Positions 1,758 to 59,447 of a stretch of DNA of 64,000 bases are shown here, in pieces; within the stretch, counting starts at the first letter, position 1, and each line of letters starts with the position of its first letter. A program made the translations under genes and the position numbers. Below the pieces are notes generated by a model that worked only from the letters and a program-made list of their open reading frames with translations, was not told the DNA's origin and made no database searches. The stretch covers positions 186,001-250,000 of the forward strand of contig JAUMXB010000001.1 of NCBI GenBank assembly GCA_030529365.1, in the 5' to 3' direction. Origin of the DNA: Cardiobacteriaceae bacterium. Its GTDB lineage: Bacteria > Pseudomonadota > Gammaproteobacteria > Cardiobacteriales > Cardiobacteriaceae.

Positions 1758-1807
1758 GCTTTCAATATCGGCAAAAGTCGAAAAACCCACAATAAACCTT
1801 GCTTTAT

Positions 1808-1858
1808 AGTATTTTTTTACCGCAACAAGCGCTTCATAATGGTAAAAAATCATCATTT
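1808..1858. repeat. AAGCGCTT intergenic element, copy 1 (single core)
   Basis: Core AAGCGCTT at 1827-1834, flanked by the inverted arms TTTTTTTACC and GGTAAAAAATCATCA. It lies 40 bp upstream of the methyltransferase start, between two genes read in the same direction. Confidence 0.85.
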
Positions 1859-4841: not shown

Positions 4842-4892
4842 AATAATATCTTTTTATCACGCAAAGCGCTTATTAATGGTAAAAAAACATTT
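4842..4892. repeat. AAGCGCTT intergenic element, copy 3 (single core)
   Basis: Core at 4864-4871 with arms CTTTTTATCAC and GGTAAAAAAACAT. It lies between two minus-strand genes, 20 bp past the stop of the small protein at 4913-5149. The remainder of the 4578-4841 gap shows no gene; it presumably carries the promoter of the 3063-4577 gene. Confidence 0.85.
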
Positions 4893-9617: not shown

Positions 9618-9702
9618 AATAGTGAATTTTTACCATAAATAAGCGCTTATCATGAGAAAATTTCTCACGGAAAGCGCTTCTTTATGAGAAAAAATACCAC
9701 TC
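9618..9702. repeat. AAGCGCTT intergenic element, copy 4 (two cores)
   Basis: Cores 9641-9648 and 9672-9679, 31 bp apart, with linker GAGAAAATTTCTC. The left arm is TTTTTACCA and the right arm GAGAAAAAATACCACT. It lies 30 bp upstream of the TPR gene. Confidence 0.9.
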
Positions 9703-10153: not shown

Positions 10154-10518
10154 TGGAAGCGGCGATTGCGCATCTTCGGCAAATCTGACATCCGCCTGCC
10201 GCATCCCCATAAAAACGCCCTTTTTTCTGCGAGTGTTTTGGGTATAAACCCGAATGCCTCCTGTATCAAACGCCCGCTGTTTCTGCTGCGAAGCCCCTTG
10301 GCGCTGCCGCAGGGCCGCAGGCGCAAGACTTTTTTTACAGGTCTGAATGTTTGAAACAATCGGGTGTCAGCATGTTGCCTGTAGCGCTCATGGAGCACGT
10401 GTTTGCCCATTCAGGGATGCAAGGCTACGCCCCTGCGTCTTGGTTGGCGATGGATGTGGCAGATCAGGTTGAATGACTATATTTTTGCAAACTCATTTTC
10501 CATAAAAAAAGCGATTAC
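10154..10518. other. Gene-free 365-bp gap
   Basis: No coding frame with a ribosome site or family resemblance was found. Around 10276-10312 a GC-rich stretch, GAAGCCCCTTGGCG followed by CTGCCGCAGG, loosely resembles the repeat found at 36.78 and 59.9 kb. Confidence 0.5.
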
Positions 10519-10569
10519 AGTGATTTTTTCTCACCACAAGCGCTTATCGATGATAAAAAACTGCTATTT
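10519..10569. repeat. AAGCGCTT intergenic element, copy 5 (single core)
   Basis: Core 10538-10545. The arms are ATTTTTTCTCA and TGATAAAAAACTG, with matching outer triplets (CAG and CTG). It lies between convergent genes, 23 bp from the stop of the lipoprotein gene. Confidence 0.85.
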
Positions 10570-12752: not shown

Positions 12753-12838
12753 AAAATAATCGTTTTTTACCACCATTAAGCGCTTAATACGATAAAAAAT
12801 ATCTATAAAGCGCTTAAAAATGATAAAAAATCACTATC
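12753..12838. repeat. AAGCGCTT intergenic element, copy 6 (two cores)
   Basis: Cores 12778-12785 and 12808-12815, 30 bp apart. The linker is GATAAAAAATATCTAT rather than the GAGAAA palindrome. Arms are ATAATCGTTTTTTACC and TGATAAAAAATCA. It lies between convergent genes. Confidence 0.9.
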
Positions 12839-16455: not shown

Positions 16456-16545
16456 AAAAATAGTGTATTTTTCTCACGACAAGCGCTTATTGATGATAAA
16501 AATACACCATACAAAGCGCTTATCATGGTGTATTTTTATCATTGC
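16456..16545. repeat. AAGCGCTT intergenic element, copy 7 (two cores, long linker)
   Basis: Cores 16481-16488 and 16514-16521, 33 bp apart. The linker is TGATAAAAATACACCATACA, and the outer arms TAGTGTATTTTTCTCA and GGTGTATTTTTATCA both contain GTGTATTTTT in the same orientation. It fills most of the gap between the Slam gene and the transporter operon. Confidence 0.9.
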
Positions 16546-19819: not shown

Positions 19820-19871
19820 ATAATGATTTTTTACCATCCGCAAGTGCTTGTCGCGATAAAAAAACATGATA
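19820..19871. repeat. AAGCGCTT intergenic element, copy 8 (single variant core)
   Basis: Core variant AAGTGCTT at 19842-19849 with arms ATTTTTTACCA and GATAAAAAAACAT. It lies in the divergent promoter region of hisP and dapE. The rest of this gap (19611-19819) is AT-rich and gene-free, with a GGAAATTTTTCC palindrome near 19660. Confidence 0.8.
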
Positions 19872-19923: not shown

Positions 19924-21102
19924 ATGGCCGCTTTCACTGCCGACAGCCTTCTGCAAACCCTCATCGCCCGCAAAAGCATCACCCCCGACGACGCCGGTTG
20001 CCAGCAAATCCTTGCGGAAACGCTTGCCCCGCACGGCTTTGCCTGCCGCCAGATCGACCTCGGCGACACCAAAAACCTGTGGGCCACGCATGGCAGCGGC
20101 GCGCCCGTCATTGCCTTTGCCGGCCATACCGATGTGGTGCCGCCGGGCAATCCTGCCGACTGGGCCAGCGATCCCTTCGTGCCCACCGTGCGCGACGGCA
20201 TGATTTACGGGCGCGGCGCTTCCGACATGAAAAGCGGCGTGGCGGCCATGACTCTCGCGCTCGCCACGCTTGCCGAGCAATATCCCGACCATCCCGGCAC
20301 CCTCGCCCTGCTCGTCACCAGCGACGAAGAAGGCGTTGCCACCCACGGCATCCAGGCCGTCTTGCCCATACTCGAAAGCGAAGGCACGCATATCGATTAC
20401 GCGATTGTCGGCGAACCCACCGCCAGCGCCGAGCTGGGCGATGCCGCGCGCAACGGCCGTCGCGGTTCGCTCACGCTCACCTTGACGGTGCATGGCATTC
20501 AAGGCCATGTCGCCTATCCCGAAAAGGTGAAAAATCCGGTACATGCGCTTGCCGCCATTCTCGCCGAACTCGCGAGCATCCGCTGGGACGGCGGCAATGC
20601 CCACTTCCCGCCCACCTCCATGCAGGTCAGCAATGTACAGGCCGGCACCGGCGTGGACAACGTCGTCCCCGCCACCGCCATGGCCATCGTCAACTGGCGC
20701 TTCAATACCGAACACACTGCCGCCAGCCTGCGCGAACAGGCCGAAGCCATCGCCGAACGCCACAGCGCATCCCTGGGCTGCCGCAACACCTGCCAGTGGT
20801 ATCTTTCCGGCGAACCTTTCGTGACCGAGCTGGGCGTGCTTACCGAAGCCGTCGCCCGGGCCTCTCTCGCCCACACCGGCAAAACGCTGATCTTCAACAC
20901 GGCGGGCGGCACCTCGGATGCGCGCTTCCTCGCCAAATACGGCACCGCCACGGTGGAATACGGCGGCAGCAACGCCACCATTCACAAAGTCAACGAATGC
21001 GTACCGCAAGGCGAAAGCGACCGCCTCGCCGCCATTTATCACGACAGCATCGTCCATTTGTGGCAGCGTCTGGCAGCAGAAGGCCAGCGCAAAACAGAAT
21101 GA
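19924..21102 (+). CDS. dapE: Succinyl-diaminopimelate desuccinylase
   Basis: 392 aa M20 metallohydrolase that removes succinate from N-succinyl-LL-diaminopimelate in the lysine and peptidoglycan precursor pathway. The zinc and catalytic residues are in FAGHTDVVPPG (His68, Asp70), GRGASDMKSG, TSDEEG and VGEPT, and the C-terminal GGTSDARF is diagnostic of DapE. AGGAA lies just upstream of the ATG. The TGA stop (21100-21102) is the first triplet of an intergenic-element arm. dapB, acting earlier in the same pathway, is encoded 5 kb away on the other strand. Confidence 0.95.
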   Translation: MAAFTADSLLQTLIARKSITPDDAGCQQILAETLAPHGFACRQIDLGDTKNLWATHGSGAPVIAFAGHTDVVPPGNPADWASDPFVPTVRDGMIYGRGASDMKSGVAAMTLALATLAEQYPDHPGTLALLVTSDEEGVATHGIQAVLPILESEGTHIDYAIVGEPTASAELGDAARNGRRGSLTLTLTVHGIQGHVAYPEKVKNPVHALAAILAELASIRWDGGNAHFPPTSMQVSNVQAGTGVDNVVPATAMAIVNWRFNTEHTAASLREQAEAIAERHSASLGCRNTCQWYLSGEPFVTELGVLTEAVARASLAHTGKTLIFNTAGGTSDARFLAKYGTATVEYGGSNATIHKVNECVPQGESDRLAAIYHDSIVHLWQRLAAEGQRKTE

Positions 21103-21186
21103 GAAAATTTCTCATAAAAAAGCGCTTGTTTCGAGATTTTTTCTCGCAACAAGCGCTTCATCGTGGTAAAAAATTACTATTTTTAC
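21100..21186. repeat. AAGCGCTT intergenic element, copy 9 (two cores)
   Basis: Cores 21120-21127 and 21151-21158, 31 bp apart. The left arm TGAGAAAATTTCTCA contains the dapE stop; the right arm is GGTAAAAAATTACTATTTT. It lies between convergent genes. Confidence 0.92.
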
Positions 21187-26677: not shown

Positions 26678-27241
26678 ATGCCAGACGAAAAGACGGAATC
26701 CCTTTCATTTGCCGAACTGGTCGGCAACGTCACGCCCCTCGCTCATAAAGACAAACATCCCCATTTCGCCCGTCCGCGCCAGCGTCCTGTCGCCCAGGCC
26801 CTGCAACGCCGCCTTGCCGCGCAAGGCATGCGTCCGGCGCCCGTGGCGCGGCGGCACGATGCTGTGATGTTCAATCTCGACGGCATTCCCGCCGAACGCT
26901 TCACCGCCATGCAGCGCGGCGAACTGCCCTTTGCCCGCATTATCGACCTGCACGGCTATTACGTGGCCGACGGCATTGCCCGCCTTGATGATGCCCTGCA
27001 TCAGCGCCGCAACCGGCACGGAGAAATCTGGCTCATCATCCACGGCAAGGGACGCAACAGCCCGGCGCACGACCGCGCCCCGCTGAAGCAGGCCGTCATC
27101 GATTTTCTCTGCCGCCATCCTGCCGTCGCCGCGCTTTGCTCGCTGCCGGATCGCGATCGCGACAGCGGCGCGCTCTGCATCGATGTTTACCGCAAACCGC
27201 GGACACCCGTCAAACAACATGAGAAATTTTCCCATCCATAA
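26678..27241 (+). CDS. Smr-domain protein
   Basis: About 187 aa (ATG 26678; ATG 26636 is an alternative). The C-terminal half is an Smr domain: RIIDLHGYYVADGIARLDDA, EIWLIIHGKGRNSP and the late PDRDRDSGALCIDVYRKP. Smr domains are nucleases acting on branched DNA or on mRNA of stalled ribosomes (SmrB). The N-terminal part is basic and unstructured, as in the YdaL/SmrA-SmrB group. The reading frame runs into an intergenic element that supplies the last residues (EKFSHP) and the TAA stop. Confidence 0.85.
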   Translation: MPDEKTESLSFAELVGNVTPLAHKDKHPHFARPRQRPVAQALQRRLAAQGMRPAPVARRHDAVMFNLDGIPAERFTAMQRGELPFARIIDLHGYYVADGIARLDDALHQRRNRHGEIWLIIHGKGRNSPAHDRAPLKQAVIDFLCRHPAVAALCSLPDRDRDSGALCIDVYRKPRTPVKQHEKFSHP

Positions 27242-27310
27242 GCGTTTATGGTGAGAAATTTTATCACGCAAAGCGCCTATCTTTGGTAAAAAAACAACTG
27301 TTTTTTCGGT
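27219..27310. repeat. AAGCGCTT intergenic element, copy 10 (two degenerate cores)
   Basis: Cores AAGCGTTT (27240-27247) and AAGCGCCT (27271-27278), still 31 bp apart. The left arm TGAGAAATTTTCCCA lies inside the smr reading frame; the right arm is GGTAAAAAAACAACTGTTTTTT. Confidence 0.88.
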
Positions 27311-27319
27311 TTTATAAAA

Positions 27320-27965: not shown

Positions 27966-28053
27966 AATGAGAAAATTTCTCATCAATAAGCGCTTGTTCC
28001 GATAAAATTTCTCACAACAAGCGCTTATAAGTGGTAAAAAACATCTATTTTTG
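27966..28053. repeat. AAGCGCTT intergenic element, copy 11 (two cores)
   Basis: Cores 27988-27995 and 28019-28026, 31 bp apart. The left arm is a TGAGAAAATTTCTCA palindrome and the right arm GGTAAAAAACATCTATTTTT, which ends three bases before the dnaE stop. Confidence 0.92.
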
Positions 28054-31586: not shown

Positions 31587-31662
31587 GGGACGGGCGCGGC
31601 GAAAGAAAGGCGCGTAGCTTACCCGATTCGCCGCAACGCGCCAACCATGCAGCAACAACAGT

Positions 31663-31747
31663 GGTATATTTTCTCATAAATAAGCGCTTCTTGCGAGAAA
31701 ATTTTGCATATAAAGCGCTTTATTATGGTAAAAAATAACTATTTCAA
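31663..31747. repeat. AAGCGCTT intergenic element, copy 12 (two cores)
   Basis: Cores 31682-31689 and 31713-31720, 31 bp apart. Arms are ATTTTCTCATAAAT and GGTAAAAAATAACTATTTC. It lies in the divergent dnaE/hemB promoter region. Confidence 0.9.
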
Positions 31748-31759
31748 AGCAAAATATGA

Positions 31760-32806
<1,047 letters not shown>

Positions 32807-32837
32807 AGTGGGTACAAAATCATCATAAAAATACCAA

Positions 32838-32921
32838 AAATAATTATTTTTTACCATCAATAAGCGCTTATTATGATAAAAAGTCATCATACAAAGCGCT
32901 TTTCATAGTCATTTTTTACCA
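32838..32921. repeat. AAGCGCTT intergenic element, copy 13 (two cores, TCATCAT linker)
   Basis: Cores 32862-32869 and 32894-32901, 32 bp apart. The linker is GATAAAAAGTCATCATACA and the outer arms AATTATTTTTTACCA and AGTCATTTTTTACCA. It lies eight bases before aroE. Confidence 0.92.
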
Positions 32922-32929
32922 CACACACC

Positions 32930-33715
32930 ATGACCTATCATTGCGCCGTACTCGGCAACCCCATCGCCCACTCCCAATCCCCCGAGATTCACGCCCGCTT
33001 TGCCCGCGAGCACGGCATCGCTCTCGACTACACGCGCATTCTCGTCGAGCCGGGGCATTTCGCGTCCATCGTTCGCGATTTCTTCGCGCGCGGCGGCACG
33101 GGGCTCAACGTCACCCTGCCCTGCAAGGAAGAAGCCTTTGCACTTGCCACGCGCCACACGCCCTACGCGCAAACTGCCAGAGCCGCCAATACCCTGTGGA
33201 TGGCGGACGACGAACTGTGGGCAGACAACACCGACGGCCGCGGCCTCGTTCGCGCCCTCAGCCATGATCACCAATATCCCCTGCAAGGCAAACGCATCCT
33301 GCTGCTCGGCGCGGGCGGCGCCGCGCGCGGCGTGGTGCTGCCGCTTTGCGAAGCGCAGCCCGCCGTCATCCATATCGCCAACCGCACCCTCGACAAGGCG
33401 CAAGCCATCGTCGCCGAACACGCGCACATCGGCGTGCCGCTGGAAGCGCTTGCCCTCGACGGGCTTGCCGACCGCTACGATCTCATCATCAACGCTACCT
33501 CGGCCGGGCTTTCCGGCGCCGCACTGGCCCTGCCCGACAGCATCCATCACGAAAAAACCCTCGCCTACGACATGGTTTACGGCAAAGACACCCCCTTTCT
33601 CGCCTGGGCGCGCGCGCGCAATCTCGCTGCGCACGACGGCCATTCCATGCTCGTCAACCAGGCATACTTGAGCTTTTGCCAATGGTTTCAAATTGATTCG
33701 GAATCCCGCCCATGA
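32930..33715 (+). CDS. aroE: Shikimate dehydrogenase
   Basis: 261 aa. It reduces 3-dehydroshikimate with NADPH in aromatic amino-acid synthesis. Substrate-binding HSQSPEIH and GLNVTLPCKEEA (catalytic Lys) are visible, with ADNTDGRGLVRAL (catalytic Asp) and the cofactor loop LLLGAGGAARGVVL followed by IANRT. It is slightly shorter than the E. coli enzyme at its C-terminus. The stop overlaps the apbC start as ATGA. Confidence 0.94.
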   Translation: MTYHCAVLGNPIAHSQSPEIHARFAREHGIALDYTRILVEPGHFASIVRDFFARGGTGLNVTLPCKEEAFALATRHTPYAQTARAANTLWMADDELWADNTDGRGLVRALSHDHQYPLQGKRILLLGAGGAARGVVLPLCEAQPAVIHIANRTLDKAQAIVAEHAHIGVPLEALALDGLADRYDLIINATSAGLSGAALALPDSIHHEKTLAYDMVYGKDTPFLAWARARNLAAHDGHSMLVNQAYLSFCQWFQIDSESRP

Positions 33716-34770
33716 ACGACATCCAGACCCTCATCCAGGATTGGCACGATCCGGTGCTCGGCCTCAAGCCCTTTGCCAAACAGAAAATCACCTTTGCAGA
33801 CGGCATCCTGACGCTTGTCACCGGCTTTCCCTGCACGCTGGAGCACACCCGCCTTGAAGCGGCGGTGCGCGCCCTGCTTGCCGAACACGGCATCGCGGTA
33901 AAAAAAATCCGCTTTCAGGTCAATATCAAGGCGCACGCCGTGCAGGCCGGGCTGAAACCGCTCCCCGGCGTGAAAAACATCATCGCCGTCGCTTCCGGCA
34001 AGGGCGGCGTCGGCAAATCCACGCTGTCCGTCAACCTCGCCATTGCCCTCTCCCAGCAGGGCGCGAACGTGGGGCTGCTGGATGCCGACCTCTACGGCCC
34101 GAGCCAGGCGATGATGCTCGGCGGCGCCACCGCGCCGGACACCCTCGACGGCAAAACCATCCAGCCCGTCTGGCGGCACGGCCTGCAAACGCTCTCCATC
34201 GGCGACCTCGTCACCGAAGACACCGCCATGATCTGGCGCGGCCCCATGGTCACGCAAACGCTCATGCAGCTCCTCTCTGAATGCCAGTGGCACGAACTCG
34301 ACTACCTCGTGATCGATCTCCCGCCCGGCACCGGCGACACGCAATTGACCCTCGCCCAGCAAATTCCCGTCGCGGGCGCCGTCATCGTCACCACGCCGCA
34401 GGAAATCGCCCTGCTCGATGCGAAAAAGGCCAAAACCATGTTCGACAAAGTCTCCATCCCCGTTTTGGGACTGGTGGAAAACATGAGCCATTACCGCTGC
34501 CCGAACTGCGGCCACGAGGCGCACATCTTCGGCCACGACGGCGGCAAAGCGCTTGCCGCGCGTTACCAGTTGCCGCTTCTCGGGCAAATCCCGCTCGACC
34601 CCGGCATCCGCGCCCAGGCCGACCAGGGCAACCCCACCGCTGCCGCCGATCCGCACGGCGAACTCGCCCGCCTCTACCAGACCATTGCCGCGCGCACCGC
34701 CGCGCAACTGGCCTCGCGGCAAAAGAGCTTCACCCAGGCGTTTCCGAAAATCGTGGTGGAACGCGGATAA
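33712..34770 (+). CDS. apbC: Iron-sulfur cluster carrier Mrp/ApbC
   Basis: 352 aa. An N-terminal MIP18/DUF59-like domain (about 5-75) is followed by a P-loop ATPase with deviant Walker A SGKGGVGKST (residues 95-104), LDADLYGPSQ, DLPPGTGD and the C-terminal CPNCG that can hold a bridging Fe-S cluster. The ApbC/Mrp/NBP35 group carries and delivers Fe-S clusters in the cytoplasm. It is co-translated with aroE, an arrangement with no obvious metabolic link. Confidence 0.93.
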   Translation: MNDIQTLIQDWHDPVLGLKPFAKQKITFADGILTLVTGFPCTLEHTRLEAAVRALLAEHGIAVKKIRFQVNIKAHAVQAGLKPLPGVKNIIAVASGKGGVGKSTLSVNLAIALSQQGANVGLLDADLYGPSQAMMLGGATAPDTLDGKTIQPVWRHGLQTLSIGDLVTEDTAMIWRGPMVTQTLMQLLSECQWHELDYLVIDLPPGTGDTQLTLAQQIPVAGAVIVTTPQEIALLDAKKAKTMFDKVSIPVLGLVENMSHYRCPNCGHEAHIFGHDGGKALAARYQLPLLGQIPLDPGIRAQADQGNPTAAADPHGELARLYQTIAARTAAQLASRQKSFTQAFPKIVVERG

Positions 34771-34785
34771 TCGCTTTTCAGTAAT

Positions 34786-34874
34786 TTATAATTCTTTTTT
34801 AACACGAATAAGCGCTTATCGCGATAAAATTTCTCACGATAAGCGCTTATTTGTGAGAAATTTTCTCATTCGCC
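34786..34874. repeat. AAGCGCTT intergenic element, copy 14 (two cores)
   Basis: Cores 34810-34817 and 34841-34848, 31 bp apart, both within ATAAGCGCTTAT. The right arm TGAGAAATTTTCTCA (34854-34868) contains, on the minus strand, the TGA stop of the asparaginase gene. Confidence 0.92.
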
Positions 34875-35804
34875 ATACATGGCCACTTCCACCGCACCAT
34901 CGTCATACACGCAGGCGCGGTACATCCCTGCCGTATTGAACGGCAGGCAGACATTGCCGGCCTGATCGATGGCAATCATGCCGCCCGCGCCGCCGAGAGC
35001 CGGCAAGGTTTCGTGCACCACGCGACGGCAGGCCTCCGCCAGCGGCAAACCGGCATGCGCCATCAGCGCCGCCACCTCATAGGCAGCCAGGCTGCGGATA
35101 AAATGCTCGCCGTGGCCGGTGCAGGAAATGGCGCAAGTGCGGTCATTGGCATAGCAACCCGCGCCAATCAGCGGCGAATCGCCGACGCGCCCCGGCATTT
35201 TGTTGGTCATGCCGCCGGTGGAAGTGGCGGCGGCGAGATGCCCGCGCTTGTCGCGCGCCACCGCGCCCACTGTGCCCATCTTGCGATTCTCGTCGAGCGG
35301 CGCATCGTGATCGAGCGCCGTCAGCGCCTGTCCGCGCGCGGCAAGCCATTGCTCGCGGCGCATGGCCGTCGTGAAATAGCCGTTATCCACCATCGCAAGC
35401 CCCTGCGCTTCGGCAAACGCTTCCGCGCCCGCACCGATCAGGAGCACGTGCACACTCTTCTCCATGACGGCGCGCGCCGCCAGCACCGGATTTTTCACGC
35501 GGCACACCCCGGCAACCGCGCCACAGGCAAGCGTCGCGCCATCCATGATGGCAGCGTCGAGTTCGTGCCTGCCATCGCGGGTGAGCACCGCGCCGCGCCC
35601 GGCATTGAAGAGCGGTTCGTCTTCCAGCAGACGCACGGCATGGGCGACGGCTGCCACGGCGCTCGCCCCTTCGCGCAGCAAATCCGCACCCGCGCGCACG
35701 ATATCTTCCAGCGCCTCGCGATAGCGCGCCGCTTCTGCCGCACTGTGCCGCCCGATGGCGCCAGCGCCGCCGTGAATGGCAATCAAAGCCTTGCCTCGCG
35801 CCAT
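34866..35804 (-). CDS. iaaA: Isoaspartyl peptidase / L-asparaginase (Ntn hydrolase)
   Basis: 312 aa precursor that self-cleaves into two chains. The nucleophile lies in KMGTVGAVARD, with Thr178 as the new N-terminus after autoproteolysis (Thr179 in the E. coli enzyme). The substrate region GRVGDSPLIGAGCYA and GHGEHFIR are also typical. It hydrolyses beta-aspartyl dipeptides and asparagine. The start is two bases after the stop of the upstream M55 peptidase, so the pair forms a peptide-degradation unit. The stop codon is inside an intergenic element. Confidence 0.92.
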   Translation of the reverse strand: MARGKALIAIHGGAGAIGRHSAAEAARYREALEDIVRAGADLLREGASAVAAVAHAVRLLEDEPLFNAGRGAVLTRDGRHELDAAIMDGATLACGAVAGVCRVKNPVLAARAVMEKSVHVLLIGAGAEAFAEAQGLAMVDNGYFTTAMRREQWLAARGQALTALDHDAPLDENRKMGTVGAVARDKRGHLAAATSTGGMTNKMPGRVGDSPLIGAGCYANDRTCAISCTGHGEHFIRSLAAYEVAALMAHAGLPLAEACRRVVHETLPALGGAGGMIAIDQAGNVCLPFNTAGMYRACVYDDGAVEVAMYGE

Positions 35805-35806
35805 GT

Positions 35807-36634
35807 TTAGCCCCGCAATGCCGCCGACGCGGCAGAAAACAGGTTCAGCACCCGCATCACGCGGCGCATGCTCGTTTCCGTAAAGGCCACCGTTGTGCCA
35901 TCCACGCGCTCGCTATCCGGGAGCAGCGCGAAAAGATCGGCAAGCGCCGGATTGTTGGCGCGCACGGTGCAGCGGTACGGCGCATCCATCACAAAAAGCG
36001 CCGGTTTTTTCCGCACGGCAGCGCGCACTGCCGCTTCCACGCCGCGCTGCAACGCATCGCAAAGCGCTGCTGGCGACAGGTTCGCCGCCGCATAATCGCC
36101 AAGCGCCGTCTTGCTTTGCAGCCAGTGCACATCGGGGAAAAAGGCGCGGTTCTCGGCAATGAAATGCTGGTCGCCACTGGCAAAAACCAGCGGCACGCCC
36201 AGCTCGCCAGCGAGCAGCCCGTAAAGCCCCGCTTCGCCCAGCGATACGCCGTTCACGGCAATATCGGCAAACGCGAAACCGTTGATGGTATGCGCGAGCA
36301 CGCCCTGCCCGCCCGCCTTGCTGTGATAACCGACCAGCACCAGCGCGTCTGCTTCCTCTATCACGCTCGCCAGCATACCGTCCGCCCGCGGCTTGCCGCT
36401 GACCAGCACGGCGCGGCTGTCCATGTCATCCGCCGCCATATTGCGGAAGCCGCCATGCGCATCCGCGATCCACACCGTCTCCGCACCGCCGGCAAAAGCA
36501 CCAGCCGCCGCGGCATTGGCTTCCGCTGCCATCCAGCGTCGCGCCCGTTCGTATTCGGCATTGCCCGGACGGGTCTGCTTGGGATGCACCACCCCGGCCA
36601 CGCCTTCGATATCAACGGAAATCAGGACTTTCAT
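35807..36634 (-). CDS. M55-family D-aminopeptidase (DppA-like)
   Basis: 275 aa. The zinc ligands known from B. subtilis DppA are in place: MKVLISVDIEG (Asp8, Glu10), IADAHGG (His60), GYHSKAG (His104), the catalytic AHTING (His115) and GEAGLYG (Glu134, one residue later than in DppA). DppA removes N-terminal D-amino acids, typically D-Ala from cell-wall-derived peptides. ATG 36634 has GGGAG upstream; a further ATG at 36679 lies inside an intergenic element and was rejected. It is coupled to iaaA, not to a dpp transporter. Confidence 0.88.
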   Translation of the reverse strand: MKVLISVDIEGVAGVVHPKQTRPGNAEYERARRWMAAEANAAAAGAFAGGAETVWIADAHGGFRNMAADDMDSRAVLVSGKPRADGMLASVIEEADALVLVGYHSKAGGQGVLAHTINGFAFADIAVNGVSLGEAGLYGLLAGELGVPLVFASGDQHFIAENRAFFPDVHWLQSKTALGDYAAANLSPAALCDALQRGVEAAVRAAVRKKPALFVMDAPYRCTVRANNPALADLFALLPDSERVDGTTVAFTETSMRRVMRVLNLFSAASAALRG

Positions 36635-36658
36635 TTTTACTCCCTCAAAAATCACCCG

Positions 36659-36716
36659 AAAATAGTTGTTTTTTACCATCCATAAGCGCTTTTAACGGTA
36701 AAAAATAACTATTTTA
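36659..36716. repeat. AAGCGCTT intergenic element, copy 15 (single core, complete arms)
   Basis: Core 36684-36691 at the centre of a long inverted repeat: AAAATAGTTGTTTTTTACC on the left, GGTAAAAAATAACTATTTT on the right (one mismatch). This is the clearest complete single-core unit, about 58 bp. Confidence 0.92.
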
Positions 36717-36739
36717 TGCTTAGAAACAAAACAATATTT

Positions 36740-37010
36740 CATCACCAACTCTTTGTAGCCAGAGATACAGCGCCCGCCATCCTGCTACAAAGTGCTTCAA
36801 ATCCCCTTGGGCGCAGCCGTAGACGCGGGGTTTTTTTGGCGGGGTTACGGGCTTGGGTGTTTGAGCGCAGCGAGTTCCCAAGCCCGCCGCCGAAAGCCAC
36901 GCGGCAAGGGAAAACTGCGCCCCGGGGTCGCCTTTCTTTGGTTACTTTCTTTGGCGACGCAAAGAAAGTAACCGGCCGCGCGGCCGTGAAGCGCAATCTC
37001 TACAAAATAC
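36740..37010. repeat. Palindrome-rich repeat cluster
   Basis: Gene-free stretch with three recognisable parts. One is a segment with GCTACAAAGTGCTTCAAA at 36784, shared with 59.9 kb. Another is a hairpin GGGCTTGGG/CCCAAGCCC (36849-36885). The third is a perfect 14-bp stem GGTTACTTTCTTTG/CAAAGAAAGTAACC with a six-base loop (36940-36973). The rest of the 36717-37120 gap shows no gene. Confidence 0.75.
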
Positions 37011-37120
37011 CTTGTCTCCAATTACTGCCACAGACGCCAATGAAACCTCTAACACTCAAAAATATTTTCCATTTTTCATAGCGATGGTAGATGAACCTAC
37101 CAATAGTCGGTAATTGGAAA

Positions 37121-38062
37121 TCAATATATCCCCATCGCGGCCAACTGCTCCCTCTGCTGCGGCGACAGTCGCTGCACTTCCACCTTTCCCTCGCCGCCCG
37201 GAATTTCCACGATATAGCGCGGCAATGCCAGCCCGGACAGGCGCTGGCGCAAGCCGTGATACAGCGCTTCGCCTTCGGCAAGGCTCAGGCGGAAATGCGA
37301 TGTGCCTTTCGCCAGATCGAGATGGTGCAAATAATAAGGCGCGATATGGTGGTCGAGAAACGCGTTCATCAAATCGGCAAGCGCTGCCACGCTGTCGTTC
37401 ACGCCCTTGAGCAGCACGCTTTGCGACAGCAGCATGGACTCGCGCCGCAGCATGGCGAGCGCTGCCTGTGCCTCGCGGCCAAATTCGCGGGCATGATTGG
37501 CATGAATGATCACCACAAGCGGCTTGCCCGCTGCCAGCAGGGCATCGAGCATGGCCTGGCTGATGCGCTCCGGCGCCACCACCGGCACGCGCGTATGTAC
37601 GCGCACGCGGCGCACATGGGCAATCTCTTGCAGCGGCGCCAGATATTGGCGGATTTTCGCGGGCGACAGCGTCAAGGGATCTCCGCCGGAAAGAATCACT
37701 TCCTCGATGCCCGCATCGCCACGGATATAATCCAGCGCCGCCTCGCGCGCATCCGCATCCGGCGCTTCGCCCTTGCGGCCAATAAAATCCTTGCGAAAAC
37801 AGAAGCGGCAATAGACGGCGCAAGTCGGCGTGATTTTCCACAAAACCCGGTTGCGATAGCGATGCACCAGAAACGGCACCGGCGAATGGACGAAATCGCC
37901 AATGGGATCATGGCGCTCCGCCGGCAGAATCTCCAGTTCGCGCGCATCGGGCAGAAACTGGCGGCCGATGCCGTCCTGCGCGTCTGCCATTTGCGCGCGC
38001 ATGCGCGGCGTAATGCCGAGCTGGTAGGCGCTCGTCACCAATTCCTGCCAGTCAGGGCGCAT
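37121..38062 (-). CDS. epmB: EF-P beta-lysylation protein EpmB (lysine 2,3-aminomutase-like)
   Basis: 313 aa radical-SAM enzyme. The cluster motif CAVYCRFCF (Cys81, Cys85, Cys88) is followed by VILSGGDPLTLSP and RVHTRVPVVAPERIS, with the late PYYLHHLDLAKGTSHF typical of the aminomutase family. EpmB converts alpha-lysine to beta-lysine for attachment to elongation factor P by EpmA. Its length matches EpmB, not the longer clostridial KamA. Neither epmA nor efp is in the window. It is the last gene of the trpC-to-epmB operon and overlaps the upstream gene by 11 bases. Confidence 0.88.
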   Translation of the reverse strand: MRPDWQELVTSAYQLGITPRMRAQMADAQDGIGRQFLPDARELEILPAERHDPIGDFVHSPVPFLVHRYRNRVLWKITPTCAVYCRFCFRKDFIGRKGEAPDADAREAALDYIRGDAGIEEVILSGGDPLTLSPAKIRQYLAPLQEIAHVRRVRVHTRVPVVAPERISQAMLDALLAAGKPLVVIIHANHAREFGREAQAALAMLRRESMLLSQSVLLKGVNDSVAALADLMNAFLDHHIAPYYLHHLDLAKGTSHFRLSLAEGEALYHGLRQRLSGLALPRYIVEIPGGEGKVEVQRLSPQQREQLAAMGIY

Positions 38063-39497
38063 GGCTGTCTTTCAAACGCAGGGCATAGACCTTGTCGCCA
38101 CGGCTGTTGGCAAAGGTTTTGAGCACCGTGAAGGCGGAAAAATCTTCCGGCAGCGGCAACTTGCGGTTTTGCACATGAAGCAGCAAATCGTTCTTGCCGA
38201 TGCGGTAAAAAGAAGCGCCGGGCACGCCGATATCCATGAAATCCGGCGAATAAGGCAAGGGATTGCCGCCGGCGAAATAGAGCGTCTCACCCACGTTGCT
38301 GTAAAGATGCACATATTGCTGCCCCTGTGCCCACTCCCCGGCTTCGCGCCGGTAACCCGGAGTGGGGCCGAAATGCACCAGCGTACCCAGCGCATAGGCT
38401 GCCAGCAACCAGGCGCCGATCAGCACCCGCTCCGGCGGAATGCGGCGCTCGCGCACGCGGTTATAGACATAAAATACACCGGGCGCGGCCCGCCACAGCA
38501 ACAGCAGCATGACAATGGGCTGGTATTCGATATCGTCCGGCAGCTTGCCGTGATACAGAAAGCCCAGTGCGCCCGCAAACACGGCAAACCCCAGGCTGAC
38601 CACCATGAAAAGCGCCACGCGCCTGTCCAGTACCGATTTGAGACGCCGCCAGCCGGAAAGCCACAGCAGAAACAGGATCAGGAATCCCGTTGCCTTCAAC
38701 GCCTTGATCACGACCAGCACCACGGCAATGGCGAGCGCACTGCCAATGGAGAGGAGATAGGTGCTGTCACCGCCCACCAGCATCGACATTTCCATTCGCA
38801 CACGCGCAAAGTGCGTCTTTATCGTCTCCAGTATCGCGCCCAGTTCCTGCCAGCCGCCAAACAGCCAGAACAGCACCAACGCCACCAGCGCGTAATAGCC
38901 AAGCAGAAACCGTCCGCGTTCCCACAGGCGATGACGCCAGCTTCCACTGCCCGGCCAGAATAAAAAGCATAGGGGAAAACCCAGCGCCCACACGGCGCCC
39001 ATCGGCTGGAACGGTACAGAAAGCCAGAGCAGCAGAGCCCAGCTTGCAAACGCCAGATAAAAGCGCTCACGGTAATGGGCAAGAAAGCTCCAGGTACTCA
39101 ACAGCCACAACAGGGTACCCACCTGCCCCGGATGCACGGAAAAGCGCATCGCGTTGAGTTCCGGATTGAAATTGATCAGGAAAAACAGGAAAAATGCGGT
39201 AATCCGCCCGATGCCCACCGTAAGCGCAATACGGACGAAGACCCATAGCGACAAACTGTTCAGCAACATCATTGCCGCAACGCTCGGCAACATGGCCGCA
39301 TCCCAAAGATTGAGCAGCGCATCGAACCAGCCGTGCGGATAATGCGCGCTCAGCCACAACTGGCGCAAGGACGCGATGCGCGGCGTCTGCTCATGATTGA
39401 TCCACAGCAGCAGATTGGTGAGCAGCGCGAGCAACAAAACAGCAGCATCATACAGGAATACCTGCTGCCACCAGAACTTGCTGCCTTGCCTCACCAT
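38052..39497 (-). CDS. Polytopic membrane protein of unknown function
   Basis: 481 aa with about nine to ten predicted hydrophobic helices, for example VFLYDAAVLLLALLTNLLLW (14-33) and ITAFFLFFLINF (about 99-110), and a soluble C-terminal ~120 residues. Periplasmic loops such as RQLWLSAHYPHGWFDALLNL and a late LVHFGPTPGYRREAGEWAQG are rich in aromatic and charged residues. The general shape recalls GT-C fold glycosyltransferases or O-antigen-type membrane proteins, but no signature settles it. It overlaps the glycosyltransferase gene by seven bases (ATGGTGA), so a joint role in building a glycan is plausible. The family is not recognised. Confidence 0.7.
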   Translation of the reverse strand: MVRQGSKFWWQQVFLYDAAVLLLALLTNLLLWINHEQTPRIASLRQLWLSAHYPHGWFDALLNLWDAAMLPSVAAMMLLNSLSLWVFVRIALTVGIGRITAFFLFFLINFNPELNAMRFSVHPGQVGTLLWLLSTWSFLAHYRERFYLAFASWALLLWLSVPFQPMGAVWALGFPLCFLFWPGSGSWRHRLWERGRFLLGYYALVALVLFWLFGGWQELGAILETIKTHFARVRMEMSMLVGGDSTYLLSIGSALAIAVVLVVIKALKATGFLILFLLWLSGWRRLKSVLDRRVALFMVVSLGFAVFAGALGFLYHGKLPDDIEYQPIVMLLLLWRAAPGVFYVYNRVRERRIPPERVLIGAWLLAAYALGTLVHFGPTPGYRREAGEWAQGQQYVHLYSNVGETLYFAGGNPLPYSPDFMDIGVPGASFYRIGKNDLLLHVQNRKLPLPEDFSAFTVLKTFANSRGDKVYALRLKDSHAP

Positions 39498-40432
39498 CCG
39501 AGTTCTATACCGAAAATACGCCGCGGCGCCGGATAATCGCGCGGATTGCGCAAGGCAGGTTCCAGACAGGCGCCGAGACGCTGGCCAACGTCCCTGGGAT
39601 GGAAAAGTTTTATCTTTTCAACGGCGTTTTGAGAAATTTTTTCGCGCAGAGCATTGTCTTGCAATAACTTGTCCAACAACTCCGGCAAGGCTTCAACATT
39701 GCCGAAAAATACGCAATCCTGCCTGTCGTGCCATCCGTAAAGCACGCGCCGTTTCAGATTGAGCGTCGGCAGCAGCACCACAGCGCCACTGGCCATCGCA
39801 TGTACAGCTAGCGTAGGCTCATAGTGTTCGCTCTCGGGATAGAAAAGGAAAATATCCTGCGGCTTGACGTGCTCACTGAGATACTGATCGCTGCCGGCCA
39901 GCAATACTTGCTCCACACGAATCTGCCCGGCAGGATCAACATCCTGCCACGGCACATCCAGAGTCCCCGACGGGTCAAACACATGCACCACCGGCGTTTC
40001 CCGCACTGGCCTGCCGGCATGAAACCATTCCGGATCGTATGCCGGCGGCACCCAGCTCGCGTCCCAGCCATGGCGGACAAACTCGGCACAGGCTTCATCA
40101 TCGATGCCAATCCAGCGTATCCACGGCATTTTCGCAAACAGCCTGGCTATCTGCGGCCTGCGCACCTTGTCGTAATCCATGCACAGCACCACTAACCCCG
40201 GTATTTCACGGAAAAACCTGCGTTTTTTGAGCAGGTATTCGGGCGAAGCGGAGAGCACGATGCGATCATACTGATCTTTTGGCACAAAACGGCGAAAAAA
40301 GTCCTCAATACTCTCCCACTGCTCTTCATCGAGCCGATATACGTCGCACGTACCCACACGCATGCGCAACGAGGCATACAACGCGCTGGAAAAGCGCCTG
40401 GAAGTTTCCGGCATGAGGATCAGGACTTTCAT
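39491..40432 (-). CDS. Glycosyltransferase, GT4-like
   Basis: 313 aa soluble protein of GT-B outline. The N-terminal half starts MKVLILMPETSRRFSSALYA. The C-terminal half has the acceptor/nucleotide-sugar segment IFLFYPESEHYEPTLAVHAM followed by ASGAVVLLPTLNLKRR, similar to the E-x7-E region of GT4 enzymes, and the terminal helix ELLDKLLQDNALREKISQNA. Donor and acceptor cannot be deduced. It is flanked by a DUF3108 protein (three-base gap) and by the polytopic membrane protein. Confidence 0.72.
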   Translation of the reverse strand: MKVLILMPETSRRFSSALYASLRMRVGTCDVYRLDEEQWESIEDFFRRFVPKDQYDRIVLSASPEYLLKKRRFFREIPGLVVLCMDYDKVRRPQIARLFAKMPWIRWIGIDDEACAEFVRHGWDASWVPPAYDPEWFHAGRPVRETPVVHVFDPSGTLDVPWQDVDPAGQIRVEQVLLAGSDQYLSEHVKPQDIFLFYPESEHYEPTLAVHAMASGAVVLLPTLNLKRRVLYGWHDRQDCVFFGNVEALPELLDKLLQDNALREKISQNAVEKIKLFHPRDVGQRLGACLEPALRNPRDYPAPRRIFGIELGW

Positions 40433-40435
40433 GAA

Positions 40436-41125
40436 TCAGGATTTGCGATAGTCTGCAAGTTTCAAGGAGAAGCGTATTTTACCGTCTTTGGACTGGGTGA
40501 GCGCCAGCAAACGCAGCGGATTTTCCCCAAGATAAATACGGGTTTCGCGATTGCCATGCACCTGGCGGAATACCCTGGCCGGAATCTTGCCTTCCCATAG
40601 CTCGTCCGCCTGCGCTTCCACCTGATAACGGCGCACCTGCTCATCATTGAGCAGGCTGTAATGCGTGCGGATTTTTCCCTGTTCAACGTCCAGCAGGGTT
40701 TGCACCACCATGGAGAGAGTATCAAGCGGCACATCACCCTCATAAACGAGAGCCTGCGCCTTGCCCGCGATATTGACGTCAACCCGCCGCTCAGCCGGAA
40801 CAAAAATATACTCCAGCTGAAAGCTGGCATCGCTTTCCATTGTGCGTCGATAACGCTCCGGCTGGACATCCCCCTTGCGGATGAACCCGGTAACGGTTTC
40901 GCGAATATCGCCATAGCCCAGCAATTTGGCTGCCGGTGCCGGCTTGGCAAACGTATCGATGCGGTACGTATTGCCGGTGAAAATCGCTTCATGGCGCACC
41001 TTGCCGGCATTCACGCCGCGTATCTGCAAATCATAAGTGGCATGGTAATTGTCGAGGGCAAAGGCATTGCCCAGACCGAGAGCGAAGAGCGGCAACAACA
41101 GCCGGCGCAGTTTACAAAGTGCCAT
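40436..41125 (-). CDS. DUF3108 domain-containing exported protein
   Basis: 229 aa with an N-terminal signal (MALCKLRRLLLPLFALGLGN, cleavage after NAFA). The mature part is beta-rich: YHATYDLQIRGVNAGKVRHE, DIRETVTGFIRKGDVQPERY and PLDTLSMVVQTLLDVEQGK are characteristic of DUF3108 proteins. These are periplasmic proteins of unknown role. The chosen ATG lies within the last codons of upp (14-base overlap); an in-frame ATG at 41176 would extend further into upp. Confidence 0.78.
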   Translation of the reverse strand: MALCKLRRLLLPLFALGLGNAFALDNYHATYDLQIRGVNAGKVRHEAIFTGNTYRIDTFAKPAPAAKLLGYGDIRETVTGFIRKGDVQPERYRRTMESDASFQLEYIFVPAERRVDVNIAGKAQALVYEGDVPLDTLSMVVQTLLDVEQGKIRTHYSLLNDEQVRRYQVEAQADELWEGKIPARVFRQVHGNRETRIYLGENPLRLLALTQSKDGKIRFSLKLADYRKS

Positions 41126-41735
41126 ACAGACGGTCTCCCGCATCGCCAAGGCCAGGGCGGATATAGGCGTTTTCATCCAGCTCGCGATCTACCGAAGCGG
41201 TATAAATCGGCACGTCGGGATGCGCTTCACGCAAGGCCTGCAAGCCTTCCGGCGCAGCGAGCAAACAGAGGAAACGGATGTCTTTCGCACCCAGCGCCTT
41301 GATCTTGTGAATACTTTCAATGGCAGAAAAGCCGGTTGCCAGCATGGGATCCACCACCAGCGTCACCCGCTCATCCATGGCCTTGGGCAGCTTGCAATAA
41401 TAGGCTCGCGGCCGATGAGTCTCTTCATCGCGCTCCATGCCCACATATCCAACCTTGGCTGCGGGCAGCAACTTGAGCACACCATCCAGCAGACCATTAC
41501 CCGCACGCAAAATGCTGATGATGCAAGTTTTCCTGCCAGACAGTTCCATGCCGGTCATGCTTTCCAGTGGCGTTTCGATCGCGCAGGGCCGCAAGGCAAG
41601 ATCACGCGTGGCCTCGTAGGCGAGCAGCAGACCGATTTCCGCGGTCACGGCACGGAATTCCATGGTCGTGGTTGCCTTCTTGCGCAAAGTGGTCAGTTTG
41701 TGCTGCACCAAAGGGTGCCGGATTTCATGCACCAT
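41112..41735 (-). CDS. upp: Uracil phosphoribosyltransferase
   Basis: 207 aa, family length. It forms UMP from uracil and PRPP, the salvage end of the nucleoside pathway represented by cdd-deoA here. It shows the opening VHEIRHPLVQHKLTTLR, the MELSGRKTCIISILRAGNG loop and the PRPP-binding VDPMLATGFSAIESI. ATG 41735 has AAGGAG upstream and overlaps trpC by 11 bases. Confidence 0.96.
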   Translation of the reverse strand: MVHEIRHPLVQHKLTTLRKKATTTMEFRAVTAEIGLLLAYEATRDLALRPCAIETPLESMTGMELSGRKTCIISILRAGNGLLDGVLKLLPAAKVGYVGMERDEETHRPRAYYCKLPKAMDERVTLVVDPMLATGFSAIESIHKIKALGAKDIRFLCLLAAPEGLQALREAHPDVPIYTASVDRELDENAYIRPGLGDAGDRLYGTL

Positions 41736-42534: not shown

Positions 42535-42708
42535 CCGCTTACCTGCCGGGGGCATACCAAAATATGGATTTGCCCTGATTAAAATGCGTGTTGCCGGCAG
42601 CCATCCCGTGCGGATATCTGCCGCCTGTCTGCGGCGCGTATCATGCGCGCAACATCGCGCGACAGCATACCAAATCCGACCGAAACCGTCTGCCTTTTCA
42701 TACGTTCA

Positions 42709-43284: not shown

Positions 43285-43312
43285 AGGCGCGGCATAATAC
43301 CGCATCGTGAAT

Positions 43313-44443
43313 ATGCAAGACATCCTCCTTTCCTCCTGGCTGCCGCTGCTCTCCGCCGCGTTATTGCCCTGCCTGCTGCTCCTCCTCTACCTGCACCGCC
43401 AGCACCGGCAGCAGCTCGGGCAGTTGCAGCAACTTGCCGCGCACCAGCAAAGCCAGCTCGGCAAGCTGCGCGAGTTTACCCTCGACGCCCTGCACCGCCA
43501 GCAAAACAGCCTGAACGCGCAGCAACAGCAGCAGGACGCCCTCCTGCGCGACGAACTGCACAACAGCCTCGCCCGCTTCACCCGCCAGACCGAGCAGCGC
43601 CTGCAAGACAGCCAGCACAACGCCCAGCACACCTTCAAAAGCATCATCGCCCGCCTCGCCACCATAGACGAAGCGCAAAAGCGCCTCGACCATCTCGCAA
43701 GCGGCATCAACGGCCTGCAAGACATCCTCACCGACAAGCGCAGCCGCGGCGCCTTCGGCGAAATCCAGCTCAAAACCCTGATCGACAACATCCTGCCCGC
43801 GCAACACGTGCGCTACCAGTACACGCTCAACAACGGCAAGCGCCCCGACTGCTGCATCCTCCTGCCGGGCAACGGCGGCGACATCTGCATCGACGCCAAA
43901 TTTCCGCTGGAAAGCTACCGCACCCTGCTGCAAGACGCGAACAACCCGCAGGCCATCAGAAATTTCCGCGCCGATCTGCAAAAGCACATCAAGGACATCG
44001 CCGCGCGCTACATCCAGCCGCCGCAAACCGCGGACAGCGCCATCCTCTTTCTGCCCGCCGAAGCCGTCTTTGCCGAACTGCACGCGCGGCATGGCGACAT
44101 CGTCGAACTCGCACAGCGCCTGAACGTATGGATTACCTCGCCGACCACGCTCGCGGCACTGCTCACCACCATGCGCACCCTGATCCGCGACGACACCACC
44201 CACCGCCATGCCCGCAAATTGCGCGGCGAATTGCAGGGTCTGCAACAGGAATTCGAGCGCTTCCAGCAGCACATGGAATCGCTGTCACGCCACATTGAGC
44301 AGACCAGCCGCGACATCCATGAAGCGCGTCTTGCCGCCCGCCGCCTGAGCCAACGCTTCCAGGCCATCAACCATCCGGAAGACAGCGCTTTTTCCGGCGA
44401 TTCCTTATCGAAAGAGGATGATGGGAAATTTTCTCATGACTAA
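43313..44443 (+). CDS. rmuC: DNA recombination protein RmuC
   Basis: About 376 aa (ATG 43313; GTG 43307 is an alternative). It has an N-terminal membrane helix (WLPLLSAALLPCLLLLLYL), a long Gln-rich coiled coil (about 25-130) and a restriction-endonuclease-like core with RGAFGEIQLKTLIDNIL and PDCCILLPGNGGDICIDAKF followed by PLESY. RmuC limits inversions and other rearrangements at short repeats, of interest in a chromosome carrying many inverted repeats. The last residues (GKFSHD) and TAA stop come from an intergenic element. Confidence 0.88.
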   Translation: MQDILLSSWLPLLSAALLPCLLLLLYLHRQHRQQLGQLQQLAAHQQSQLGKLREFTLDALHRQQNSLNAQQQQQDALLRDELHNSLARFTRQTEQRLQDSQHNAQHTFKSIIARLATIDEAQKRLDHLASGINGLQDILTDKRSRGAFGEIQLKTLIDNILPAQHVRYQYTLNNGKRPDCCILLPGNGGDICIDAKFPLESYRTLLQDANNPQAIRNFRADLQKHIKDIAARYIQPPQTADSAILFLPAEAVFAELHARHGDIVELAQRLNVWITSPTTLAALLTTMRTLIRDDTTHRHARKLRGELQGLQQEFERFQQHMESLSRHIEQTSRDIHEARLAARRLSQRFQAINHPEDSAFSGDSLSKEDDGKFSHD

Positions 44444-44510
44444 GCGCTTATTATGAGAAAATTTCTCACAATAAGCGCTTTTAAGTTGTAAAAAAATATT
44501 ATTTTTCGTA
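44420..44510. repeat. AAGCGCTT intergenic element, copy 16 (two cores)
   Basis: Cores 44442-44449 and 44473-44480, 31 bp apart, linker GAGAAAATTTCTC. The left arm GGGAAATTTTCTCA is within the rmuC frame; the right arm is TGTAAAAAAATATTATTTTT. It lies between convergent genes. Confidence 0.92.
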
Positions 44511-44603
44511 TTTTTAAAAACCCAGAATTTGCCTGCCAACGCTTAAAAAGGGGTTTACGGAGCAGTAGCAATGCCGCTCCCTCTGCCGGGCTTTTCTGCC
44601 GGT

Positions 44604-45629: not shown

Positions 45630-45702
45630 GGAAATTCCTTGGTTGTGCAGCAAAGGCGGCATACTACCGCAATTTGCGGGCGACGGGCGGCTTTTGCCCG
45701 GG

Positions 45703-45790
45703 ATGGTATTTTTTCTCACCATCAAGCGCTTGCATAGAGAGAATTTATCGGAGGAAGCGCTTATTGATGATAAAAAACGATTATTTTTCC
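45703..45790. repeat. AAGCGCTT intergenic element, copy 17 (two cores)
   Basis: Cores 45724-45731 and 45755-45762, 31 bp apart, linker GAGAGAATTTATC. Arms are ATTTTTTCTCA and TGATAAAAAACGATTATTTTT. It lies directly before the stop of the YciO-type gene. Confidence 0.9.
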
Positions 45791-46405: not shown

Positions 46406-46415
46406 GATTTGTCTC

Positions 46416-46503
46416 AAAATAATGATTTTTTACCACCAATAAGCGCTTTTCGTGAGAAAATTTATCGCGATAAGCGCTTACAAATGAGAAAATTTCCCAA
46501 ATT
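46416..46503. repeat. AAGCGCTT intergenic element, copy 18 (two cores)
   Basis: Cores 46441-46448 and 46472-46479, 31 bp apart, linker GAGAAAATTTATC. The left arm is AATGATTTTTTACCA; the right arm TGAGAAAATTTCCCA ends a few bases from the rnc stop. Confidence 0.92.
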
Positions 46504-50293: not shown

Positions 50294-50380
50294 GAAATAA
50301 TCATTTTTTACCATCAATAAGCGCTTGTTGCGATAAAAAATCATCATAACAAGCGTTTTTCATGATAAAAAATACCATCC
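50294..50380. repeat. AAGCGCTT intergenic element, copy 19 (two cores, TCATCAT linker)
   Basis: Cores AAGCGCTT (50319-50326) and AAGCGTTT (50351-50358), 32 bp apart, with linker GATAAAAAATCATCATAAC. Arms are AATAATCATTTTTTACCA and TGATAAAAAATACCAT. Confidence 0.9.
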
Positions 50381-51545: not shown

Positions 51546-51637
51546 TGAGAAAATTTCTCACCAACAAGCGCTTGTCACGGTAAATCTTCTCGCAATAAGC
51601 GCTTGTTGATGGTAAAAATACGCCATTTTTACAGAAA
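51546..51637. repeat. AAGCGCTT intergenic element, copy 20 (two cores)
   Basis: Cores 51566-51573 and 51597-51604, 31 bp apart, linker GGTAAATCTTCTC. The left arm is a TGAGAAAATTTCTCA palindrome; the right arm is GGTAAAAATACGCCATTTTT. It lies between convergent genes. Confidence 0.92.
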
Positions 51638-56538: not shown

Positions 56539-56626
56539 GTTTTATTGTTATTTTTTACCAACAACAAGCGCTTATCGTGAGAAAATTTATCACACTAAGC
56601 GCTTAATAATGAGAAATTTTCTCATT
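56539..56626. repeat. AAGCGCTT intergenic element, copy 21 (two cores)
   Basis: Cores 56566-56573 and 56597-56604, 31 bp apart, linker GAGAAAATTTATC. The left arm is TGTTATTTTTTACCA and the right arm TGAGAAATTTTCTCA. It lies between convergent genes. Confidence 0.92.
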
Positions 56627-59358: not shown

Positions 59359-59447
59359 AAAATAATAGTTATTTTTTACCATACACAAGCGCTTGTCGCG
59401 ATAAAAAATATCCATAAAAGCGCTTATAAATGAGAAAATTTCTCATC
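59359..59447. repeat. AAGCGCTT intergenic element, copy 22 (two cores)
   Basis: Cores 59387-59394 and 59418-59425, 31 bp apart, with linker GATAAAAAATATCCATAA. The left arm is AATAGTTATTTTTTACCA and the right arm TGAGAAAATTTCTCA. It lies about 10 bp past the stop of the small lipoprotein gene. Confidence 0.92.

Follow-up and report, generated by a model that had tools for sequence, protein, structure and literature searches.

Introduction

Repeated intergenic DNA of several kinds has been described in bacteria: in enterobacteria, REP/BIME units are regarded as markers of gene ends, BOX and Correia-type sequences are modular intergenic repeats, and the known DNA uptake words (DUS/USS) are short and non-composite. 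Words of this last kind are quoted in an excerpt of PMC3630211, and an excerpt of PMC4390886 links the HIP1 palindrome of cyanobacteria to DNA methyltransferases.

Here we describe a repeat found in a 64,000-nucleotide stretch of a Cardiobacteriaceae genome (hereafter the window), and follow it through the genome of the window (G000; 2.30 Mb, 96.6% complete), a sister species of the same genus (G001; 78% complete) and further genomes. With REP/BIME and RAYT systems it shares hundreds of copies, palindromic intergenic units, regularly spaced pairs and a frequent presence at gene ends, i.e., the placement of a REP/BIME-like architectural site. Like BOX and Correia-type repeats it is modular, variable in the number of its inner units and limited to one genus, but it differs from them in its alternating C and D dyads (defined below), in lacking end duplications and in having positions shared between species. 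Our preferred reading, to which we assign a probability of roughly one half, is that selection keeps the repeat at gene boundaries as an array of putative sites where proteins bind double-stranded DNA sequence-specifically.

Anatomy of the repeat and its copies in the window

Copies follow the plan D-(C-D)n, in which C is the core AAGCGCTT and D is an A/T-rich dyad of one of two kinds, alpha (TGAGAAAWTTTCTCA) or beta (TAGTNATTTTTTACCA), and the composites measure ~47–78 bp and more. C centres and D centres follow one another in alternation at intervals of about 15.5 bp, and cores lie mostly 31 bp apart, a spacing shared by 87 of the 103 adjacent core pairs (5-mismatch units included) in 344 kb of G000. 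That sample comprises the window and 14 stretches picked to include strict-pattern matches, and its density of copies is possibly slightly high. The spacers around the cores run 5-4-4-5 in 102/107 two-core copies (both species pooled); core columns are 97–100% fixed and spacer columns are weak. A/T steps recur with a period of 10.5–10.75 bp (85 two-core copies), which would place the D centres on one face of the helix and the C centres about half a turn off.

The window holds 23 places, of which 22 are copies in intergenic DNA (some in contact with a stop codon) and one, at 49197, lies inside a called gene and counted as background. Besides copy 15, treated below, the intergenic copies are:

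1807..1854, no strand: one-core copy, with an orthologous copy in stretch L183
2896..2975, no strand: two-core copy, its alpha end overlapping the TAA (2912-2914) of a plus-strand gene
4844..4891, no strand: one-core copy, present in G001 with an extra copy
9621..9699, no strand: two-core copy
10489..10565, no strand: copy with one good and one degenerate core
12758..12835, no strand: two-core copy, with a separate intrinsic-terminator-like hairpin at 12680-12731
16461..16541, no strand: two-core copy with 33-bp spacing, the same in G001
19822..19869, no strand: one-core copy
21100..21178, no strand: two-core copy, its alpha end supplying the TGA stop (21100-21102) of a plus-strand gene
27220..27298, no strand: two-core copy
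27968..28046, no strand: two-core copy, missing by the orthologous gene end in G001
31662..31740, no strand: two-core copy in a divergent gap
32842..32921, no strand: two-core copy with 32-bp spacing, the same in G001
34790..34868, no strand: two-core copy occupying most of a 95-bp convergent gap
44422..44500, no strand: two-core copy in a convergent gap
45704..45782, no strand: two-core copy
46421..46499, no strand: two-core copy
50299..50378, no strand: two-core copy
51546..51624, no strand: two-core copy
56546..56624, no strand: two-core copy, with a separate intrinsic-terminator-like hairpin alongside
59367..59445, no strand: two-core copy

Separate REP-like hairpin repeats (GTCGGCCATTTATGGCCGAC, GGTGGGCTAACGCCCACC and TGTAGGGACGT...ACGTCCCTACA) were also seen in the window, at 27311-27918 and 21273-21336.

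Copy 15 and its boundaries

Copy 15, so numbered by position among the 22 intergenic copies, lies ~25 bp from the ATG of a D-aminopeptidase gene:

36659..36715, no strand: copy 15, one-core element D(beta)-C-D(beta)
36659..36677, minus strand: left arm (beta dyad plus outer extension), 1 mismatch to the right-arm query
36684..36691, no strand: core C (AAGCGCTT), with spacers of 5 bp on the left and 4 bp on the right
36697..36715, plus strand: right arm (beta dyad plus outer extension), 0 mismatches
35807..36634, minus strand: neighbouring D-aminopeptidase gene (Peptidase_M55, PF04951), start codon checked

The original prediction had described a complete single-core unit at 36659-36716, bounded by terminal inverted repeats that matched each other with one mismatch. 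The inverted arms are real: two stretches of 19 nt, 95% complementary with that one mismatch, are separated by a further 19 nt that hold AAGCGCTT, and the whole measures 57 bp, one base less than had been proposed. Nor is the single core peculiar to this copy, as one-core units form a recurrent class (32 of the 128 copies outside gene calls in the 344 kb) and the G001 orthologue of copy 15 likewise has one core. When the right arm was searched with up to 3 mismatches, it gave 13 matches in the window (both of its own arms counted) and 0 in 100 shuffles. As RNA, 36655-36720 folds on the plus strand at -18.9 kcal/mol (z -6.2; 0/200 shuffles equally good) and on the minus strand with z -3.5.

Terminal inverted repeats are thus a feature of copy 15, but the mutual match of its outer arms is no general property of one-core places: at 55 such places from both species the outer arms pair at 0.509 vs 0.473 when shuffled, a slight gain (z 2.5), and in our reading of the alignment the outer arm letters of the G001 orthologue are no longer mutually well matched. 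The outer limits of the unit also depart from those drawn from copy 15. Beta ends continue through a T run and about four free bases into a weak ATTTTTTGAAAA-like box, facing gene start or gene end alike, and this extra, weakly conserved T/A box lies ~25–36 bp farther out.

A different repeat occupies window positions 36803-37000, next to copy 15 (94% over 198 bp in G001 stretch L195), and 36777-36922 finds 88% over 147 bp in G001 stretch L196; the repeat at 36803-37000 has perhaps spread more recently than the copy 15 type.

Abundance and genomic placement

In the 344 kb of G000, 238 units were found at up to 4 mismatches vs 3 after reversal of the sequence and 4 after block shuffling. Eight of the 238 fall within gene calls, and we read these eight as background, the same cut-off having given 3 and 4 in the controls. 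The units form 139 clusters, of which 8 lie in gene calls, 3 have no gene call on one side and 128 are copies outside gene calls; from these 128 we estimate ~850 copies per genome. Exact outer half-units (AAGCGCTTNNNNNTGRKAAA) number 953 in G000 and 1007 in G001 among 21 genomes searched, with 8 in a member of another Cardiobacteriaceae genus (G003), 1 each in G015 and G019 and 0 in the other 16, and the reversed control word occurs in none of the 21. A stricter pattern is present in 2/57 genomes. In a named collection, the matches listed cover at least 56 stretches, 33 from JAUNKJ (a MAG, “Cardiobacteriaceae bacterium isolate S30M_Sa_23”) and 23 from other records with one match each.

Searches of reference collections gave little: no match in Rfam at gathering thresholds, none in a tRNA search, none of the exact strict pattern in viral contigs, none when one copy was compared with plasmids by distant blastn, and, for another copy compared with phages, just 3 partial matches, all weak (best E 0.1). 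Among the literature matches listed, none is a published description of the repeat.

Placement was scored against gene calls from a custom hexamer scorer, in which gene starts are approximate. Roughly two in three of the longer intergenic gaps sampled contain the element. Among those of 50 bp or more it is present in 30/35 convergent, 73/109 tandem and 14/37 divergent gaps, and among those under 50 bp in 0/93. Convergent and divergent gaps of at least 50 bp differ (Fisher, p 3e-5), as do tandem and divergent gaps of at least 100 bp (p 0.001); convergent and tandem gaps of at least 100 bp do not differ significantly (p 0.14). The preference for convergent gaps is equally expected from mere promoter avoidance. 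Orientation with respect to transcription is free: of 36 tandem two-core alpha/beta copies, 15 have alpha on the side of the upstream 3' end and 21 have it on the side of the downstream start.

Comparison with the sister species

Twelve window copies were paired by hand with a G001 copy in the same gap, and unit number is equal in all 12, with core spacing kept in 8/10 two-core orthologous pairs. Over the 12 pairs, identity is 171/176 in cores, 251/308 (0.815) in half-sites and 82/194 (0.423) in spacers, compared with 0.975, 0.777 and 0.406, respectively, for random cross-species unit pairs. Spacer letters are thus nearly saturated between the species while motif letters are kept, and orthologous copies are barely closer to each other than random cross-species pairs; repeated conversion from other copies is possible.

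Several copies stand outside the pair count. Copy 19822..19869 is also present in G001, where the end of the stretch cuts it, and copies 10489..10565, 12758..12835 and 27220..27298 have a G001 element by the same gene end that is arranged or placed differently. For copy 59367..59445 there is none in the 431 bases past the mapped G001 flank, the next G001 element lying ~1 kb on. The comparison left out copies 45704..45782 (contig ends), 9621..9699 (flanks unmapped) and 21100..21178.

Mobility

Inverted ends such as those of copy 15 had been proposed as sites recognised by a transposase or RAYT-like enzyme, an interpretation that our data do not support. Flank matches around 90 two-core copies equal those of shuffled pairs in three windows, i.e., no target-site duplication appears; D dyads outside elements (solo arms) amount to 0/151 in the 344 kb; and among 87 two-core G000 copies none are near-identical, the best pair sharing 16/18 spacer letters (1 such pair vs 0.2 expected). 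The sister species, moreover, occupies the same gaps.

A check suggested along with that proposal, a search for a transposase gene flanked by the same inverted repeat, gave differing results in the two species. The only Y1 transposase match in G000 (PF01797 searched genome-wide) is an IS200/IS605 TnpA (NCBIfam 156 bits, cut-off 55), and AAGCGCTT is absent from the 3.4 kb around it. G001 has a RAYT gene (L092 1369-2370; NCBIfam 206 bits, cut-off 80), and the gap upstream of it holds two element copies, identical in 92/110 aligned columns and accompanied by GTAG-type hairpins (GTAGGTACGGTTAGG). This is the best point for the transposase idea, though G000 lacks the element pair, which looks like the product of a local duplication.

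A MITE or RAYT-mobilised repeat with terminal inverted repeats, still or recently mobile, would also fit the argument that ~1000 composite elements are hardly possible without copying, and would fit the slightly raised number of similar spacer sets in the 87 copies (observed vs expected: 76 vs 49 at 13 matches, 22 vs 13 at 14, and 5 vs 1.8 at 15). Set against the missing duplications, solo arms and near-identical copies, the gap positions common to both species and the repeat-free surroundings of the sole G000 Y1 match, we regard current or recent mobility as very unlikely. Compared with REP/BIME and RAYT systems, which the G001 RAYT and its two neighbouring copies recall, the element also differs in its 31-bp helical arrangement, in that no RAYT was found in G000, and in that GTAG-type hairpins exist as repeats separate from it.

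RNA folding and termination

A second alternative holds that the element is a bidirectional transcription terminator or a 3'-end RNA hairpin. Copies do fold well as RNA (z -3.5 to -7.2 in six strands folded) and are enriched at convergent ends; good folding, however, is what any inverted motif would be expected to give. Pairing of spacers is close to that of shuffles (inner spacers z 2.2, outer z 0.7, around cores z 1.4 and -0.6), so that spacer covariation is almost nil, and outer half-sites pair below the shuffled level (z -6.8) because alpha and beta ends mix. Cores are changed in 15 of 99 two-core copies, and 14 of those 15 are altered in one core only, in some cases breaking the pair. Paired changes that would keep a stem, as in REP/RAYT repeats, were accordingly not found (spacer z 2.2 and 0.7; core changes mostly one-sided), and the element is conserved as sequence with saturated spacers rather than by stem covariation. 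Spacers that pair about as shuffles do, together with one-sided core changes, point to constraint on the letters themselves, as for protein sites.

The layout is equally unlike that of an intrinsic terminator: the paired cores have T-runs on their 5' side and A-runs on their 3' side, and a GC stem with an immediate T run, fixed relative to transcription, was not found. Ordinary GC hairpins with T tails instead adjoin copies 12758..12835 and 56546..56624. A terminator or RNA hairpin is, on this evidence and given the free orientation (15 vs 21), quite unlikely. A directional 3'-end terminator, suggested by single cases, did not stand up to the same orientation counts. Consensus scans of 31000-47500 against shuffles gave 8 promoters (mean 6.2) and 17 terminators (mean 22.0), neither of which stands out.

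Proposed protein sites at gene boundaries

We favour protein-site arrays because C and D dyads alternate ~1.5 helical turns apart with near-fixed motif positions and weakly constrained spacers, because the same gaps are occupied in both species with near-complete exclusion from coding sequence, and because presence is strongest in convergent and weakest in divergent gaps with orientation unfixed. Under this model, one or two abundant dimeric DNA-binding proteins would bind the C and D sites of one array, and bound arrays would act at transcription-unit ends as nucleoid or insulator sites, in a role like that ascribed to REP/BIME units at enterobacterial gene ends. Selection would maintain the sites, and the composite elements would first have spread by a copying process that is no longer visible. 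We count against the model the inner-spacer pairing, slightly above shuffled (z 2.2), and the good folding of the RNA of copies. By our own reasoning, moreover, the information in the motif is far above the need of ~1000 sites, which per-site selection explains poorly and drive explains better.

One specific version of protein binding is that the elements are operators of a genus-specific LacI-type regulator (345 aa), whose gene was located as follows:

L274 646-1683 and L273 640-1683: LacI-type regulator gene, beside ABC-transporter and PfkB genes

The centre of LacI-family operators is AANCGNTT, which AAGCGCTT fits, and among 12 family genomes searched PF00356 matches in exactly the two that bear the element (G000 and G001), where the gap upstream of the LacI operon has an element core (CG-centred dyad score 7/8). 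Most gaps carry elements anyway, however, and the same gap has a second CG-centred dyad, TTTACACGAGTAAA (6/8), which may be the regulator's own operator. The protein is a LacI-type sugar regulator with a sugar-binding domain, its HTH matches are borderline (30.1 and 26.5 bits, cut-off 27), and G003 carries the core word without a LacI match. We consider this regulator an extremely unlikely owner of the arrays.

The core word elsewhere in the family

The main rival of the protein-site array is a DNA uptake signal or genome watermark, in which a putative preference of the family's competence receptor for AAGCGCTT-bearing DNA would bias uptake and keep the word abundant, as a bare 12-bp palindrome in the genus of G003 and in a composite intergenic form in that of the window. 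In G003, whose genome is given as 1.6 Mb, the palindrome CAAAGCGCTTTG, which shares the 8-bp core, stands at 1756 places (the search reports it once per strand; 1756 counts places), compared with 0–8 in each of the other 56 genomes searched. In a G003 sample 88% of which is coding, 78 of 111 such 12-mers lie in coding sequence. The core AAGCGCTT itself occurs 248 times in 89.9 kb of G003 vs 18 expected, with 193 occurrences in coding sequence, and coding core words number 190 vs 10.6 expected when synonymous codons are shuffled. Flanks are flat beyond the 12-mer, which implies that D is absent there. The G003 palindrome looks like an uptake word or a HIP1-like word.

A few observations from these searches stand apart. 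G003 stretches L215-L217 and L234-L236 contain intergenic core pairs 22–39 bp apart, one with a terminator-like T tail; an ordinary intrinsic-terminator-like hairpin, complete with T tail, is built at L205 1561-1582 from two cores that lack D dyads and lie 14 bp apart; and TAGCGCTA is slightly enriched in G007 stretches L223-L225 (7 vs 1.2 expected), perhaps a further weak word.

Evidence that the bare core is also enriched in G000 coding DNA is mixed. It occurs 67 times vs 12.8 by codon shuffle and ranks first of 256 palindromic 8-mers (67 vs 13.0), and AA precedes GCG-CTT in 41/161 cases vs 12–13% for GCG-CTC and GCG-CTG. Yet other CTT-context words also exceed the codon shuffle, and a maximal-order model predicts 65.5 where 64 are seen. 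ComEC, found in 14/15 genomes including G000, G001 and G003, is consistent with competence in the family, but is not confined to genomes with the word.

The uptake reading thus draws on the G003 word and its largely coding location, on the top rank and codon bias of the G000 core, on ComEC, and on a motif that is numerous, unoriented and over-constrained. Like DUS/USS, the element is a lineage-specific word in very high copy number, and a second genus of the family carries its core as a short word within coding DNA; unlike DUS/USS, the element is composite (~47–78 bp and more), palindromic and intergenic in the window's own genus. With this composite form, and with the G000 coding counts matched by the maximal-order model, an uptake signal or watermark seems to us unlikely. 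HIP1, as a hyperabundant palindrome, is closer to the G003 word than to the element of the window; it differs in its link to methyltransferases, no C5 methyltransferase (PF00145) having been found in G000 or the incomplete genome of G001. G003 has one match to this family.

Implications

A broader view, which we offer tentatively and with considerable doubt, is that Cardiobacteriaceae may read AAGCGCTT genome-wide in genus dialects: as the bare 12-bp CAAAGCGCTTTG in one genus (one per ~0.9 kb, genes included) and in the other as composite C/D arrays, phased with the helix and set at gene boundaries. If true, the known uptake or chromosome-organising signals would gain a new one beyond the Neisseriaceae and Pasteurellaceae; we know of no earlier signal of that kind that is palindromic and composite. 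Two genera with a common 8-bp core and differing arrangement would allow a direct test of how dialects change in uptake words or architectural sites. On the preferred protein-site reading, an element whose motif letters are fixed and whose spacers are near-free, kept at an estimated ~850 places in each genome, points to a putative abundant DNA-binding protein that may shape the whole chromosome.
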